Source: a virus. Taken from it: 24,952 nucleotides of DNA. Numbering within the stretch: the stretch's first letter is position 1; each line of letters starts with the position of its first letter. Shown in pieces: positions 3,059 to 24,404 of the stretch. Under the pieces are notes generated by a model, which was not told the DNA's origin, searched no databases, and was given only the letters and a program-made list of their open reading frames with translations. Position numbers and translations under genes: made by a program. The DNA is taken from positions 1 to 24,952 of IMG/VR virus record IMGVR_UViG_3300022920_000035. One strand, written 5' to 3'.

Positions 3059-3586
3059 TTATGCGTTTGGGTCTATTTGAGATGAACTCTCGTTTGCAGT
3101 AACAACAGTTGAAACTGTAAAGTTAGCTGGAGATGTTTCCATTCCTTCTAATGTTAAAGTAAATCCAGATAAATCTCCCATTGCAGCACCAGATACAATT
3201 GTACCTCCAGTTACCTCTGCTCCGTGTTCTAATCCAACCATAAAGAAGTTTCCATTATAGTCCTCAATCGCAACGTGCGGTCTTGATGCAGCCAATAATT
3301 TAATCTCTTCTTGTGTCGCTTTGTCCAATGTGGTCAAAGTTAAGTTCAATGTTTGTGTGTAAAAAGTAGTTCCGTTTTCTCTTGAACTGGTAATCGCAGT
3401 TTCTAAAGATGAAGAACCTTTGATATCGTATTTGAAAAAATCTGGAGTTCCAGCAACCGCAGTAATCTCTCCAGCTACTATTGTAACATCTCCTAATGTA
3501 CCGTAATCAGCGAAATAAACCGCTTTTAAGCCACCAACAGAACTTTTACAAGGTAACGCTCTACCAGATGTAAGTAAACAAGCCAT
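3059..3586 (-). CDS. Major tail tube protein
   Basis: A 175-residue protein beginning MACLLTSGRALPCKSSVGGLK, a start I associate with the tail tube family of Bacteroidetes siphophages, whose subunits stack as rings around the tape measure. The rest is beta-rich (TFYTQTLNLTLTTLDKATQEE, later GFTLTLEGME) as expected for the gpV/Hcp-like tube fold. The gene is isolated between two intrinsic terminators, one after the capsid gene (3612-3649) and one after itself (3004-3031). This fits a protein needed in many copies and made from its own transcript. Start supported by the A/T-rich block TATATACACT before ATG. Confidence 0.75.
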   Translation of the reverse strand: MACLLTSGRALPCKSSVGGLKAVYFADYGTLGDVTIVAGEITAVAGTPDFFKYDIKGSSSLETAITSSRENGTTFYTQTLNLTLTTLDKATQEEIKLLAASRPHVAIEDYNGNFFMVGLEHGAEVTGGTIVSGAAMGDLSGFTLTLEGMETSPANFTVSTVVTANESSSQIDPNA

Positions 3587-3611
3587 AGTGTATATATTTT
3601 TTTAAGGTTAT

Positions 3612-3649
3612 AAAAAAAGGGGCGAGTAGATTAACCACCACCCCTTTTT
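3612..3649 (-). terminator. Rho-independent terminator after the major capsid gene
   Basis: On the minus strand AAAAGGGG pairs with CCCCTTTT, extended by a few weaker pairs around a loop of up to 18 bases, and the 3' arm runs into a T tract of seven. It lies 20 bases beyond the capsid stop codon and before the tail tube gene. With the terminator at 3004-3031 it brackets the tail tube gene. Confidence 0.85.
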
Positions 3650-3668
3650 AATTGTTATTTATTTAATA

Positions 3669-4589
3669 TTAAGAGTAGAAAACTACATCTTCCAATACTG
3701 CAATCTGAACTCCAGCAGTATAACGTGCGATAAATCTTACATTTTTAGACCCATCTAAATCGCTCATATCTAAAACCTTGATTTCGTTGTGGTCAGATAA
3801 TAAACCAGTTCCAAAGAATAAGTTAGATTTCAAAGTAGCAACCATTGTGTTATCAGCTAATCCGTTTGCACATACAACTTTCATTCCATCGAAATACTGG
3901 ATGTCGATATCTTGGTTTGTTCCTTGTGCCATAAATCCGTTTGCACCAACTCCATCAGCAGCAAATCCACCTAATGCTCTCTTGTATGCTCTCCATACGT
4001 TTTGAGATACATAGATAAATAAATCTTCGTTTCCGTATAAAGCAGATGGTACTGCATCAGCAACTTTTCCTAATTCAGCAATAACGTTTGCAGCAGTTAC
4101 AGTTCCAGCAGTAATGTCTTGTCCAGCTGGTAAAGTAGCAGCAGTCAACAATGTAGCAAAACCATCAAATGTTCCAGCTCCAGCAGTTCCACTCCAGATG
4201 TCTTGTTCTGTTTGTTGTGCAATCTCTCCAGCCATTAATCCGATAAAGTAATCAGAAAAAGTTGCTGGTAAATTGTCGTGTGCAGAATATCCCATTGAGA
4301 TAGCTTCCCAATCTGATTGGAATGGAGTTTTACACAACTCTAAATTTACTTGTAATTCTTTTGGTTCGATGATTCTTTCAGTTAAAACAACTGCTCCAGC
4401 ATCAGTAAAATCACAACTTGCGTTTGCGATAGCACCAGATAAACTTACTCTTTTTAAAACCTCTTTGTGTTTTACATTTGGCTTAACTTCGATTAATCCG
4501 TTTGCGATAGTGTTACCAGACAAAAGTGCAGCAGAAACATATTTCCCAGCAAATTCCCCAGCGTAAGTACTTGTAATTGATAAACTCAT
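3669..4589 (-). CDS. Major capsid protein
   Basis: A 306-residue protein with the length, Ala/Gly-rich composition and order of an HK97-fold capsid subunit. There is an N-terminal arm (MSLSITSTYAGEFAGKYVSA), a long central helix region (WEAISMGYSAHDNLPATF, GLMAGEIAQQTEQDIWSG), and a C-terminal P/A-domain strand set (FFGTGLLSDHNEIKVLDMSD, ARYTAGVQIAVLEDVVFY). It follows the scaffold-like gene by four bases and the prohead protease lies further upstream, the usual head-assembly trio. A strong terminator follows. The start at 4589 is preceded by an A-rich block (AAATAAAAAA). The family is inferred by pattern and context, with good confidence. Confidence 0.85.
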   Translation of the reverse strand: MSLSITSTYAGEFAGKYVSAALLSGNTIANGLIEVKPNVKHKEVLKRVSLSGAIANASCDFTDAGAVVLTERIIEPKELQVNLELCKTPFQSDWEAISMGYSAHDNLPATFSDYFIGLMAGEIAQQTEQDIWSGTAGAGTFDGFATLLTAATLPAGQDITAGTVTAANVIAELGKVADAVPSALYGNEDLFIYVSQNVWRAYKRALGGFAADGVGANGFMAQGTNQDIDIQYFDGMKVVCANGLADNTMVATLKSNLFFGTGLLSDHNEIKVLDMSDLDGSKNVRFIARYTAGVQIAVLEDVVFYS

Positions 4590-6712: not shown

Positions 6713-8521
6713 TTATATTGAAGCACCTTCAATTGTGTTTCTATCCATCTCTTGAGATGTTGTAACATCCGCAGAAACCACATACGCTCTTGTTGGTTCT
6801 TGTGATTGTGAACCAATTGCATCTGCTAATTGACTTGTATTACTTGCTCCAACCACATTAAACGCTGGTGGTAAAGATGGTGGTGTTGCAGAAACTGATG
6901 CAGAACCTCCTCCGCTACCTTGTGCAAATGATGGTGCTGCTGGTTCTTTCGTACCAACTATTTGTTTAACGTTTGCAAATCCAGATGCTATAACTCCAGC
7001 GGCTGCAACTGCTCCCCAAATACCACCTTGTGCAATAGCTTTATTTGCTCCAGTATATGTATCTCTAATCGCACTTGTAATTGCTAATGCTTTTCCAAAC
7101 TTACTGTTTTGACCTAACACTCCAGCAATAGCACCAAGAGAATCCAAAGCGATTTTTTCTTTTGCCTTACCAATCTGTTTATCTATTTGAGTTTGTTTTT
7201 GTCCGTTTGCTTGTTGGTATGCAGTCAGTTCGTTTTGTGCTTCTTGATAAGCAATTGTTCCTTCTTTGTATAAATTTCTTTTAGTTTCTAAACGCTCTGT
7301 TTCTAAAGTTAATTCTTGTTCGTTTAATAGTTTTTGTCTTTCTAATCTTGCAAGTTCATTTTCTATTTGCTCCGCTTCAAATGCGTTCTTGTTTGCATTC
7401 AATTCAGCTTCTGCATCAATCTTTGAATTTGTTAATTCTAAATCTTCTCTATCTAAAGCTAAAGCATTTGATTTTTGCTCTGAACGAATACCTTCAATCT
7501 GTGCTTCAACCGCTGCAAGTTCTTTTATTGCCTCTATTTGTGCAACTTTAAATTCTACATTTTCTTTGTCCTTTTTAAGATTTGCATTTGCAATTGCAAG
7601 TTGTTGTTGTGCTTGTGAAAGCATAGCACCCTCTGCTGCACTTATTTTTAAAAGTAATTCATCGTTTGCCTTTTTACGCTCATCAATAGATTTAGTTTCA
7701 TCATCTCTTATTTGTCTTAACTTCTCCGCTTGTCTGTCAAATTTTTCAAATATTAAACCTTGTCTTGCAGCAGCTAATTCAGCAGATTTCTGTAACTCAA
7801 CATTTGCCTTCGCAGTATCAATCGCTGCCGATACACTAACCTTTCCAAGTTCTTTAATAACTGTTGAACCAATTGCACCTACTTCTGAAACTGCTTCTCC
7901 AAAATTATTATATACACTTTTAGCTGCTCCAATTGCCCCAACAACAACTTCTTTCATATTGTCTTTGGTTTCTAAAATAGCAGCATTTAATCTTTTTATT
8001 GTTTGTGGGTCTTTATCTCCAAAGAATGATTCTTCCCAAGCTAATTGTGCTGCTTGTAATCCTAATTTAATAGCGTAAAATTGAAGTTTAAAAGGTGCTA
8101 AAACATAAGTTATAATACCGCTCATAACTTTACCAAGTGCATCGAAGTTTTCTCTTGATGAAGATACCGCATCATAAATATCCGTAAACGCATTTATTAC
8201 TTGACCAACAACAATTGATGTAGTTTCAAAAACAGTATTAAATAAATCAACCGCTTTCTGGTTTTGAGAAAATAATTCTTTTATAGTTCCAAAAGCTACA
8301 ATTAACAAACCTAATCCAGCTGCCTTTATTGATGCACCTATTTTTTTAATTCCACCAGAAACAGATTTAGTTGCACCTTCAACACCCTTTAATGCTTTTG
8401 CAGTATCTTTATTTGAACTAACAACTTCTTTGTTTAAGTCCTCAACACTCTTTGCAACTTGGTCAATTCCCTTTACCGCCTTATCTGTTTTTGCTTGTAA
8501 TTCAACAACTATTTTTTCCAT
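6713..8521 (-). CDS. Tape measure protein
   Basis: At 602 residues this is the tail length ruler and is threaded through the tube. It opens with a helical repeat-like region (VVELQAKTDKAVKGIDQVAK) and has a short hydrophobic stretch near residues 66-81 (IKAAGLGLLIVAFGTI). A long Ala/Glu/Lys coiled-coil region covers about residues 240-455, followed by a hydrophobic Gly/Ala region (IWGAVAAAGVIASGFANV) and a Gly/Ser/Pro-rich linker near the end. At about 0.15 nm per residue the tail would be near 90 nm (family rule, not measured). It is short for a tape measure but typical in these phages. Its start overlaps the preceding 47-codon gene by 13 bp. Confidence 0.85.
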   Translation of the reverse strand: MEKIVVELQAKTDKAVKGIDQVAKSVEDLNKEVVSSNKDTAKALKGVEGATKSVSGGIKKIGASIKAAGLGLLIVAFGTIKELFSQNQKAVDLFNTVFETTSIVVGQVINAFTDIYDAVSSSRENFDALGKVMSGIITYVLAPFKLQFYAIKLGLQAAQLAWEESFFGDKDPQTIKRLNAAILETKDNMKEVVVGAIGAAKSVYNNFGEAVSEVGAIGSTVIKELGKVSVSAAIDTAKANVELQKSAELAAARQGLIFEKFDRQAEKLRQIRDDETKSIDERKKANDELLLKISAAEGAMLSQAQQQLAIANANLKKDKENVEFKVAQIEAIKELAAVEAQIEGIRSEQKSNALALDREDLELTNSKIDAEAELNANKNAFEAEQIENELARLERQKLLNEQELTLETERLETKRNLYKEGTIAYQEAQNELTAYQQANGQKQTQIDKQIGKAKEKIALDSLGAIAGVLGQNSKFGKALAITSAIRDTYTGANKAIAQGGIWGAVAAAGVIASGFANVKQIVGTKEPAAPSFAQGSGGGSASVSATPPSLPPAFNVVGASNTSQLADAIGSQSQEPTRAYVVSADVTTSQEMDRNTIEGASI

Positions 8522-11802: not shown

Positions 11803-12306
11803 TTATTTGTTGTTTATTGTATTCTTCATTAATTGTTCTACATCTAATTTGTATGCTTCTATCAAATCTTTACTTAATCCTTTGAATGCTTTTTCAAATG
11901 GTTTTGTAAAGAATAAACTTGGTTTAATACCATTGTTATAAATACTTCTTGCAATCATAAACTGCAATGATTTTCTACTGATGAATTTACCATCTTTATC
12001 TCTTGGTGCAATACCTTTCTTTACAATCCACTTATCCATTTTTGATGGAGGAGGCATTTTTCTTGTATATGAATATGGTGTGTTATATTTTTTCTTTACA
12101 CCACTTACACCTTTGTCTTGAAATAATCCATAATCTTCCATCAAGAAAGATAACTCAAAACTGTTTTTAGAAACCTTTACTTCGGAATCTAAACTATTAT
12201 ATAAATCTTTTGAACTATTCTTTTTACCCCTTGTTAGATTCGCCCTTGATTGGCTTATAACATATTTGGCAAACCGATTTAGTTCGTCTTTTACATTGGC
12301 TAACAT
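11803..12306 (-). CDS. HK97 gp10-like tail completion protein (167 aa)
   Basis: A basic 167-residue protein with the pattern of the HK97 gp10 family: an N-terminal helix (VKDELNRFAKYVISQSRANL), a central DYGLFQDKGVSG turn and the C-terminal PSLFFTKPFEKAFKGL. Members act at the head-tail joint or tail top. Its start overlaps the end of the preceding gene by 7 bp. Context between the tail terminator-like gene and the tail-tip genes agrees. Confidence rests on motif pattern rather than a search. Confidence 0.7.
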   Translation of the reverse strand: MLANVKDELNRFAKYVISQSRANLTRGKKNSSKDLYNSLDSEVKVSKNSFELSFLMEDYGLFQDKGVSGVKKKYNTPYSYTRKMPPPSKMDKWIVKKGIAPRDKDGKFISRKSLQFMIARSIYNNGIKPSLFFTKPFEKAFKGLSKDLIEAYKLDVEQLMKNTINNK

Positions 12307-12755
12307 ATCTCAATATCATTTGGAACAAGTACATCAAACGTTAATGCCCATCCAGCCATTTCATTTTCAAACCTATCGTAAAAAGGTTCAAGGTTTGGTG
12401 TGCCATCTAACTGATATAAATCTTGGTGTAATGTACCACCTCTTAAAACTTGTACCAGCTTATTAAGAACTGCCAACTGTGTGTTCAATATATCTTGCTC
12501 GTTGTTATTCCCTCTGAATATATCAATCACTTCTTCTTTTGAAAAGTCAACAACATCCATCGACAAAACAGATAAACTAAAACGTAATACACTATCTTCA
12601 TTTCCTACATTATTAACAATGATGTGAGATAATGGAAACATCGTCTGCTTTGATAAATCTATTCTTGTAATATCCCCACTTGTAACTGTGTTTACATTTA
12701 CATCTGCCAATAGCTGGTTCTTTATTGTTTCCGTTACTTGATAAAATCCTTTCAT
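12300..12755 (-). CDS. Tail terminator/completion-like protein (151 aa)
   Basis: A 151-residue protein with an N-terminal helix (FYQVTETIKNQLLADVNVNT), a central helix pair (NTQLAVLNKLVQVLRGGTLH) and the ending FENEMAGWALTFDVLVPN. This matches a small neck/tail terminator family that caps the tail tube so it can join the head. The start codon is fixed by the stop of the -1 frame of the chaperone gene: TAA at 12758-12756 is followed immediately by ATG at 12755. Identity is by pattern and gene order. Confidence 0.6.
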   Translation of the reverse strand: MKGFYQVTETIKNQLLADVNVNTVTSGDITRIDLSKQTMFPLSHIIVNNVGNEDSVLRFSLSVLSMDVVDFSKEEVIDIFRGNNNEQDILNTQLAVLNKLVQVLRGGTLHQDLYQLDGTPNLEPFYDRFENEMAGWALTFDVLVPNDIEIC

Positions 12756-13492
12756 TTAAAACTTATTTTTTATTTGTTGTGCTTCTATCTCTGATTTCTC
12801 TTTCATAAAAGAAAGCATTGTAAAGCATTGATGCACGTTTAATTTAGTGATATCTTCAAACCTTGTAACATCTCCGTTAGCGAGTCCATAAATTGATTGA
12901 TACCATCCCCATTTTGCTGCGAAGTTAGCTGCCCTTGAATAGCTTCCATCTCCGCTGGAGTTACTGAATAAGCTATCGTATGATTCGCTAATTCCATTCC
13001 TAAATTGTAGAAAAAAAAAAGTGAACCAATAGCTGCATCCAAAGGCATATCTTTCATAACCTCTGGAAACTTTACATCGTATTCTTCAATATTGTATTTA
13101 CCAACCTTACTTGTTTTGATTGGTCTGTATAATACATTCATAGCAACGTGCATCTTTTCCCAATCAGATGCGTTGTTGTCTAAATCAATATATTCCCCTA
13201 AACTCATTTCATCTAAATCTGGAATGAAGCCATATTCAACACCATTCATTTTAAACCTTTCAACGTGCTTTGGTGTTTGTGATAACATCTCATTTAAGAT
13301 ATCAAGTATTGCAGTAACACTACTCATCTTTAATTTGTAACTATCTGATAAAGGTATTCCACAGAATATCTCAATCATTTTAGCATCAAGAAAATTACCC
13401 TCTTGGTTGTTTTCAGCTATTTTAAGGAACTTTTGATATTGCCCTAATGTGATTTCACTTAATGAAGATGGTACGTTGATTTCGATGTTCAT
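12756..13492 (-). CDS. Tail assembly chaperone, -1 frameshift fusion (245 aa)
   Basis: If the ribosome or polymerase slips by -1 on the T run at 13020-13011, the first 161 residues continue into an 84-residue extension beginning LQFRNGISES. The extension includes FAAKWGWYQSIYGLANGDV, TRFEDITKLNVHQCFTML and ends EIEAQQIKNKF. It is open to the TAA at 12758-12756, which touches the ATG of the next gene, leaving no gap. Its Trp/Tyr-rich core and charged helical end are typical of real protein and of the C-terminus of a conserved Bacteroidetes phage protein. It would be the gpGT-like long form. That the shift occurs is inference. Confidence 0.7.
12839..13492 (-). CDS. Tail assembly chaperone, zero-frame product (217 aa)
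   Basis: A 217-residue protein (MNIEINVPSSLSEITLGQYQ at the start), consistent with the short gpG-like member of the tail assembly chaperone pair that binds tape measure and tube protein. Residues 158-161 are L-F-F-F, encoded across ten T. The last 56 residues (YNLGMELANHTIAYSVTPAE, then NGDGINQFMDSLTEMLQGLK) look protein-like, with a helical end. The start is well supported: ATG follows AGTATTATATATATATG, the same block used before the 116-aa gene. It follows the terminase and a 50-codon gene. The chaperone identity rests largely on the frameshift architecture. Confidence 0.75.
   Translation of the reverse strand: MNIEINVPSSLSEITLGQYQKFLKIAENNQEGNFLDAKMIEIFCGIPLSDSYKLKMSSVTAILDILNEMLSQTPKHVERFKMNGVEYGFIPDLDEMSLGEYIDLDNNASDWEKMHVAMNVLYRPIKTSKVGKYNIEEYDVKFPEVMKDMPLDAAIGSLFFFYNLGMELANHTIAYSVTPAEMEAIQGQLTSQQNGDGINQFMDSLTEMLQGLKISLN
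13011..13020 (-). other. Slippery run of ten T (-1 frameshift site)
   Basis: The coding strand reads TCA CTT TTT TTT TTC TAC, so ten consecutive T lie in the chaperone gene. This can support -1 tandem slippage by the ribosome on T TTT TTT, or polymerase slippage giving mRNAs with a changed number of U. A possible hairpin with a 7-pair stem and one mismatch lies downstream at 12994-12966, further away than usual for a stimulatory structure. Confidence 0.65.
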
Positions 13493-13512: not shown

Positions 13513-13665
13513 TTAATGTTTTATGAAAAAGCCCTTACAATTTTCGTATGCTTTGGTTAATAAGAAAAACTGATTACTGTTTCTTGGTCTTGCTATTCTT
13601 ATTTCTTTATCTGTTCTGTGATGTATGTAGCATTCAACAATAGCTATCATCTCTTCGTTTCTCAT
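13513..13665 (-). CDS. Small hypothetical protein after terminase (50 aa)
   Basis: A 50-codon gene (MRNEEMIAIVECYIHHRTDK at the start) whose ATG overlaps the stop of the large terminase gene (TAATG), suggesting coupling. It fills the gap between terminase and the tail assembly chaperone. It is basic, with two His, two Cys and an aromatic end (CKGFFIKH). No family is recognised. Confidence 0.55.
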   Translation of the reverse strand: MRNEEMIAIVECYIHHRTDKEIRIARPRNSNQFFLLTKAYENCKGFFIKH

Positions 13666-14828
13666 TACCTAATATTGTATTTGCCTTTGTTTGGTGTTTG
13701 TAATTGAGATGTAATTGCGTATCTGGCTGCATCAATACAATGGTTAAAAGCATCAATTGGTTTGTTGATTGTGTTTCCCTCTCTGTCTTTCATCCAAGTA
13801 TATGATTGCAATTCTTTGATGAGGTTTTTGCTTCTGCTTGTAACGTATATTTTGTTCTGGTTGATTAAGTTGATACCATACACAATTGAATCCTTTCCTT
13901 TTGTACAAGGCAACACCTTATGCCCAAGTGTTCTTAATTCAGCAATTGATTTCGGTTCTGCTGAATCAGCATACACAACTGCGTTTATATCGTTTGCTTT
14001 AAATAGGTTTGAAGTATCACTATTCAATAGTTTCTTTTGGTATATAACCTCATCAAATATGTACGCATCGTTGTACTTGTATAATCCAATCAAAGTTGTT
14101 GGGTCATTTGAGTAACCAAAATCCATCCCATAGCATAGCAACCTCGCTTCTAATGGCAGCTTAATTTCTTGCCATTCTTTTATACACACACCTTCCAAAG
14201 AACCTACTTGACCAAGTCCATATACCTTCCACCAGTTAGCCCAATATTCAGATGTCTTTGCTTTATGCTTTGCTCGTTCTATATCGTCTACAATCGTCTG
14301 TGGCAACGCTTCGTTGTCTAAATAGGTAAGTGTAATAAAATCTGCATCTGGTTGATTAGCGACCTCCTTATGCGCCCAAAAGTTTGCAGTTGGATTAAAG
14401 TCAATCCATATATCTCCAGAAGTTCTAATTGATAATTGTGTATATGCTTCAAATGGTACATTGTTTGCCTCATTCACATACAATACATTTCTTCTTGCTC
14501 CTCTTAATTTATCTGGTTGCTCAACTGAAAAGAATTCAATATAACTGCCGTTTGTAAAAGTATATTTTAATGCTGACCTATTCCATTGTGCATCTCTGTA
14601 CCTACCAATCTCAATCATTATTTTAAGGAAGTCCTTCATTGCTCCCCTTCTTAAATGTGGTATTGATTCAGATACTACACTTGTTTCTAAATAAGGTGTT
14701 CTTATACATCTATCAATAAGAATAGGCAGTATACCAAATGTTTTACCAGCTGATGTACCACCTTGAATTACTTTCTTACGCTTTTTAAGAGCGTGTAACT
14801 TTCTTATCGCAGTTGTTGTTTGAAACAT
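13665..14828 (-). CDS. terL: Terminase large subunit
   Basis: This 387-residue protein is the packaging motor ATPase and nuclease. Walker A is GGTSAGKT at residues 23-30, and Walker B is the VLYVNEAN stretch near 115-122 with the catalytic acid at 120. The C-terminal RNase H-like nuclease has Asp236 in YGMDFGYS, Asp288 in VVYADSAEP and Asp366 in HCIDAARYA. Length and order match the Terminase_3/XtmB type. It follows the small subunit with a one-base gap and is followed by a coupled 50-codon gene. All catalytic residues are intact. Confidence 0.93.
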   Translation of the reverse strand: MFQTTTAIRKLHALKKRKKVIQGGTSAGKTFGILPILIDRCIRTPYLETSVVSESIPHLRRGAMKDFLKIMIEIGRYRDAQWNRSALKYTFTNGSYIEFFSVEQPDKLRGARRNVLYVNEANNVPFEAYTQLSIRTSGDIWIDFNPTANFWAHKEVANQPDADFITLTYLDNEALPQTIVDDIERAKHKAKTSEYWANWWKVYGLGQVGSLEGVCIKEWQEIKLPLEARLLCYGMDFGYSNDPTTLIGLYKYNDAYIFDEVIYQKKLLNSDTSNLFKANDINAVVYADSAEPKSIAELRTLGHKVLPCTKGKDSIVYGINLINQNKIYVTSRSKNLIKELQSYTWMKDREGNTINKPIDAFNHCIDAARYAITSQLQTPNKGKYNIR

Positions 14829-24102: not shown

Positions 24103-24404
24103 AATGATAGTAATCTAAAAACAAAATAAGATGAAAAGAAAAACAGTTAAGATATTTCCTTGTTCAAATATACAAATAAATATGTGTTTAAATATTTAAC
24201 TTATAAACAAAAACAAAAATATTTAGCTATAAAGTTGAAGATATATATCTTTTTTTTTAGATAACACTCCGAACACTTATATTTATTTTATTATAGCTAT
24301 ATTTCTTTATTTTTTTTTATATTAATATTTTACTATAAAACAGTAACTAATTAATAAATTACAAAGTTATATATTTTTTTTTGAAATAAAAAACAAAAAG
24401 TTAA
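24103..24404. other. Gene-free, very A/T-rich region
   Basis: No supportable gene lies here. The region is almost entirely A/T, with long A or T runs. Two minus-strand boxes match TANNTTTG: TAACTTTG (24369-24362), with a TTTTTG about 24 bases upstream, and TATATTTG (24172-24165). Transcripts from them would end at the terminator at 24102-24068, giving short RNAs of roughly 290 or 90 bases. AAATATACAAATAA (24166-24179) and TTATAAACAAAAA (24201-24213) recur at 15940-15953 and 15966-15978. It could be an origin or a regulatory region. Confidence 0.4.

Follow-up and report, generated by a model that had tools for sequence, protein, structure and literature searches.

An uninterrupted run of nine or more T at the frame transition of a putative tail chaperone gene in a family of flavobacterial phages

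Results

Genes and features at the locus

The window, by which we mean the whole 24,952-base IMG/VR virus record analysed here (31% GC), carries on its minus strand a small gene whose coding sequence is crossed by a long run of T (Table 1). As had been predicted from the letters alone, the run consists of ten T on that strand; the zero frame runs on for 56 codons beyond it and ends at 12839, and in the -1 frame 84 codons are open up to a stop at 12758-12756, which directly precedes the next gene, whose ATG lies at 12755. Within the -1-frame extension lies the conserved motif KWGWYQSIY, and the peptide WGWYQSIYGLANGDVTR belongs to this C-terminal end of the long product. No homopolymer in the window is longer than the T10 run, the next longest being three non-coding T9 runs (24250-24258, 24310-24318 and 24374-24382) spaced by about 60 bases within AT-rich intergenic DNA.

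Table 1. Features at the locus, in window coordinates
Feature	Position	Strand	Observation
Zero-frame ORF, short product of 217 aa	12839..13492 (incl. stop)	-	Kept in 346 distinct relatives; AlphaFold2 mean pLDDT 86.8
T10 slippage run, zero frame CTT TTT TTT TTC	13011..13020	-	All relatives have T9, T10 or T12
-1-frame extension, 84 codons plus stop, C-terminus of long product	12756..13010	-	dN/dS 0.12 past the zero-frame stop; helical model, pLDDT 81
Overlap read in both frames	12839..13010	-	Zero-frame constraint at the first and last ~13 codons; -1-frame constraint throughout
Next gene, PHROG 30964 (function not assigned)	12300..12755	-	Start codon directly follows the -1 stop; homolog found in 315 of the 317 loci that have room
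Terminase large subunit, neighbouring gene upstream	13665..14828	-	Homolog found in 286 of the 321 loci that have room
Tape measure candidate, four genes further downstream	6713..8521	-	Weak PHROG 1686 match, E 0.0055

The gene sits beside the terminase gene and is not directly upstream of the tape measure candidate, in agreement with the original prediction that several genes would separate the two. The order of terminase, the gene under study and the PHROG 30964 gene is kept across relatives, and in most relatives the -1 stop and the start of the next gene abut or overlap, as they do at 12758-12753 in the window: among representative loci they form ATGA in 42 of 87 and overlap by one base in 20 of 87. 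Since the -1 stop meets the next ATG, it is the -1 product alone whose translation terminates at the start of the next gene, and the expression of that gene may be coupled to slippage. The order of the structural genes in the window is unusual, with a major capsid candidate and a major-tail-like protein (3059-4589) situated beyond the tape measure candidate.

Conservation of the frame transition

Several hundred loci were collected by searches with the zero-frame product, with the -1 extension and with alignments of both. Profile searches of these loci, using the N-terminal part and the extension, yielded 346 distinct sequences, which fall into 62 clusters when grouped at 60% identity; one more relative (L246), which a distance filter had set aside, brings the total to 347. 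The family is diverse, with a median pairwise identity of 0.41 in the first set of 62 representatives. All 346 distinct sequences have the same plan, a short ORF followed at a slippery site by an extension in another frame, and in 346 of 346 this frame is -1 with respect to the first ORF. The run is T9 in 237 of them, T10 in 103 and T12 in 6, and L246 has T9 as well; an in-frame fusion, a run of T7-T8 or another slippery motif was found in none of the 347. The predicted programmed -1 extension is thus kept in every relative.

Among these relatives are the isolated Nonlabens phage P12024L (L082), with T9, the same -1 relation and 31% identity, and two cultured Flavobacteriaceae genomes, of Flagellimonas and Galbibacter (L319 and L325). 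One relative (L323) comes from a metagenome bin labelled Epsilonproteobacteria, which is probably a binning error because the other named hosts are Bacteroidota. A search of isolate phages with the extension alone (tblastn) gave no match. Flavobacterium phage 6H possesses a remote homolog (L417 10352-10927, minus strand) that ends in CFFYSTR-stop on a T6C run and is followed by about 100 codons of unannotated open frame; its frames are unclear, and it was set aside as an outgroup.

Such a run is not expected by chance. In 275,124 nt of coding sequence outside the gene, taken from 87 representative loci, the coding strand holds no T9 or longer run and a single T8, and from the encoded residues and codon usage a run of at least nine would be expected at the site in a fraction of 0.21 per lineage, whereas it was observed in 62 of 62 lineages. 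It is practically certain that the -1 transition is programmed.

Selection on the two frames and models of the products

Substitution rates were obtained from 32 disjoint pairs of close relatives. In the zero frame the synonymous rate is 0.156 upstream and drops to 0.06-0.08 within the overlap, which indicates that the -1 frame is constrained throughout. Conversely, the synonymous rate of the -1 frame, which is 0.105 past the zero-frame stop and 0.123 halfway through the overlap, is only 0.029 in the first 13 codons of the overlap and 0.039 in the last 14, so that the zero frame must be constrained at these two ends too. In the approximately 30 middle codons the zero frame has a dN/dS of 1.07 and shows no purifying selection. 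Codon-phase entropies agree with this pattern. The original prediction that both frames code for protein therefore holds at both ends of the overlap, while uniform dual coding is rejected for its middle.

For the short product, AlphaFold2 gave a model of good confidence up to about residue 170 and of low confidence in the last 40 residues. The T run encodes approximately residues 158-161, inside a helix that spans residues 151-176, and the extension modelled alone consists of helices. In these models the two frames appear to provide alternative second halves of one helix, which appears to be followed by a loose tail in the short form and by a helical domain in the long form.

Length of the run and search for stimulatory elements

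An uninterrupted run of at least nine T is found at the frame transition of all relatives, and this floor of nine is selected. The flanking codons covary in a way that preserves it: 5' codons that contribute one T (GAT, AGT and GGT, in three lineages) and are followed by two TTT codons pair with a 3' TTG, and wherever the 3' codon begins with C, the 5' codon is TTT. When the 5' and 3' contributions were permuted, a mean of 4.2 runs fell below nine, and the probability that none would do so was 1.75e-5 (2.5e-6 with clusters at 70%); these P values should be read as guides, because the clusters are not fully independent. Nor is the run ever shortened by TTC, which accounts for 24% of Phe codon usage. 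In the relatives of the LFFFY type the last base of the third Phe codon (13010 in the window) is nearly always C (TTC TAC). The run-closing C outnumbers T, which would be synonymous in both frames, by 48 to 6 (the T12 runs), in counts that ignore kinship, and this suggests an upper bound on run length too.

The heptamer T_TTT_TTT is present in the zero-frame phase in every relative. Downstream RNA structure gave no signal in 87 representatives (mean z 0.05 to 0.17, with pseudoknots outside the model), and a stimulator resembling a Shine-Dalgarno (SD) sequence was not in excess, being found in 3 of 87 representatives and in 7 of 87 controls.

Discussion

The observations are best explained, with a probability that we put at about 0.6, by one gene that makes two products through polymerase slippage; the two probably form a tail-chaperone pair. 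The short product of 217 aa and a long product of about 245 aa would share the N-terminal domain, and in the latter the helical domain encoded in the -1 frame would take the place of the C-terminus and of the final part of the last helix. The host RNA polymerase would slip on the run of nine or more T to give a fraction of mRNAs with one extra U, from which ordinary translation would yield the long product. The most likely role of both products would be that of chaperones in tail assembly, as with lambda gpG/gpGT or P2 gpE/gpE+E'.

Homopolymers are prone to error in both sequencing and replication, and the run might be suspected to be a sequencing or assembly error, part of a pseudogene or a phase-variable tract with only one of the two frames of any importance. 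We consider the probability of this negligible: all 347 relatives, P12024L and the two cultured bacterial genomes among them, keep the -1 relation at T9, T10 or T12 and none is in frame, which rules out sequencing error, pseudogene and phase variation, and purifying selection acts on both frames. It is also very improbable that the -1 ORF forms a small gene of its own, initiated within the overlap, as the annotation of P12024L gp41 from an ATG in the -1 frame might suggest. An ATG between the run and the conserved WGWY was found in just 5 of 87 representatives, and a start codon of any kind in 15 of 87, so that separate initiation was rejected; the T run, moreover, would then be without a role.

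How the -1 frame is entered is a matter of two mechanisms, and the original prediction had allowed both ribosomal and polymerase slippage. Because every run contains T_TTT_TTT in phase, programmed ribosomal frameshifting by tandem slippage of tRNA-Phe, as for P2 gpE+E', could also produce the long product. The P2-type tail chaperones do shift on T6G, T7G or T7C, and the direction is -1 in every relative, a uniformity among orthologs that has been considered a mark of ribosomal shifting, since the direction of polymerase slippage need not be conserved (Antonov et al., PMC3711429); the long overlap, however, would fix the -1 direction whatever the mechanism. Furthermore, given the heptamer and the encoded residues, most runs would reach nine anyway (0.94 per lineage), which counts against the polymerase. 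Yet the ribosomal reading appears rather unlikely to us. The heptamer would survive in runs of seven or eight, and T_TTT_TTC and T_TTT_TTG, like runs of T7-T8, suffice for ribosomes and serve P2-type phages, but none of them occurs alone here; the covariation keeps the run at nine or above, and neither a stimulatory structure, in a model without pseudoknots, nor an excess of SD-like elements was found. The run-length floor of nine favours RNA polymerase slippage and narrows the choice. Bacterial slippage on runs of nine has been reported (PMC5009743), as has slippage on Tn with n above 8 (PMC3711429), and the floor matches the RNA:DNA hybrid of the elongating polymerase, which measures 9-10 bp (PMC5009743) or 9 bp (PMC5574713). 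A hard floor at nine is not demanded by the polymerase, because the E. coli enzyme slips already on T7-T8 (PMC6260861). From the sequence evidence we infer that slippage by the polymerase rather than the ribosome is probably the main mechanism, and a mixture of the two is possible.

With regard to function, the predicted role as a tail assembly chaperone is suggested by the plan of the gene and its place in the late operon, with one weak fold match; named chaperone families gave no match, and the gene does not directly precede the tape measure candidate. Searches of Pfam, NCBIfam and the PDB gave no match that would relate the sequence to a named chaperone family; the PDB fold search returned nothing significant (best Z 3.3), and the extension alone had no match with Z of at least 2 among the four chains compared. 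Matches to viral folds comprise relatives without names and, weakly, one BFVD entry named tail assembly chaperone. It is conceivable, though doubtful, that the gene is programmed as described and that its products are a head-tail connector or a terminase-associated pair. The location directly after the terminase large subunit, away from the tape measure candidate, and the missing chaperone family matches would fit such a pair. On the other hand, tail chaperones are usually organized as one small late gene that gives a short and a frameshifted long form, the fold match named above points in the same direction, and no other chaperone candidate lies beside the tape measure. We infer from this comparison that a tail-chaperone function is quite probable.

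Tail chaperones are a textbook example of ribosomal recoding by frameshifting. If the polymerase slips instead, the ratio of the two chaperones would be set during transcription, and polymerase slippage serving the same logic would represent a natural exchange of one mechanism for another in the service of a single function, as is known for dnaX. Frameshifted tail chaperones and polymerase slippage on T9 or longer runs are each already known separately; no report of the two combined in the obligate gene plan of such a large phage family was found in the open-access literature. We give slightly less than an even chance to the proposal that, throughout a very widespread family of flavobacterial tailed phages, the tail-chaperone pair arises by programmed slippage of RNA polymerase, for which a run of at least nine T is obligate, with the two frames of the long overlap encoding alternative ends of the same helix. 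Such a family would allow tests of what determines the chaperone ratio and of how a run of nine or more stays stable in a fast-evolving phage genome.

Comparison with known systems

Among the closest known systems is P12024L (Inhavirus), whose gp40/gp41 pair (L082 3001-3695) shares with the gene under study its homologous sequence, the T9 run, the -1 extension with WGWY and the terminase upstream. Unlike here, the zero frame of P12024L ends 24 codons past the run, and the pair was deposited as two separate hypothetical proteins, the fused long product having been missed by annotation.

Lambda gpG/gpGT, with its heptamer GGGAAAG, lacks a long T run and has a short overlap, and no sequence relation to the gene under study was found. 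Its likeness consists in a short and a -1-extended product made from one gene (PMC5009743). P2 gpE/gpE+E' likewise gives a short and a long product, here by shifting to the -1 frame on a T run that lies towards the end of a short gene and is followed by an extension of 50-62 codons; no sequence similarity to it was found. Because a scan of viral contigs with P2 gpE gave near-identical copies only, 13 records of P2-type phages served as the control. Ten of their chaperone genes have T6, one has T7 and two have no T run, and a published comparison of P2-type chaperones lists T6G, T7G and T7C (PMC3931495). The P2-type runs are T6-T7 ending in G or C, lie 6-63 nt before the zero-frame stop and belong to genes beside the tape measure, whereas those of the present family are T9 or longer, lie about 46-77 codons before the zero-frame stop and belong to a gene beside the terminase.

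The counterparts for the proposed mechanism are Thermus dnaX (A9), Shigella mxiE and spa13, and IS transposases. These are not phage structural genes, and the direction of slippage need not be conserved among their orthologs; as is proposed here, however, they use about nine A or T to obtain mRNAs with extra bases and from them a second product (PMC5009743, PMC3711429).
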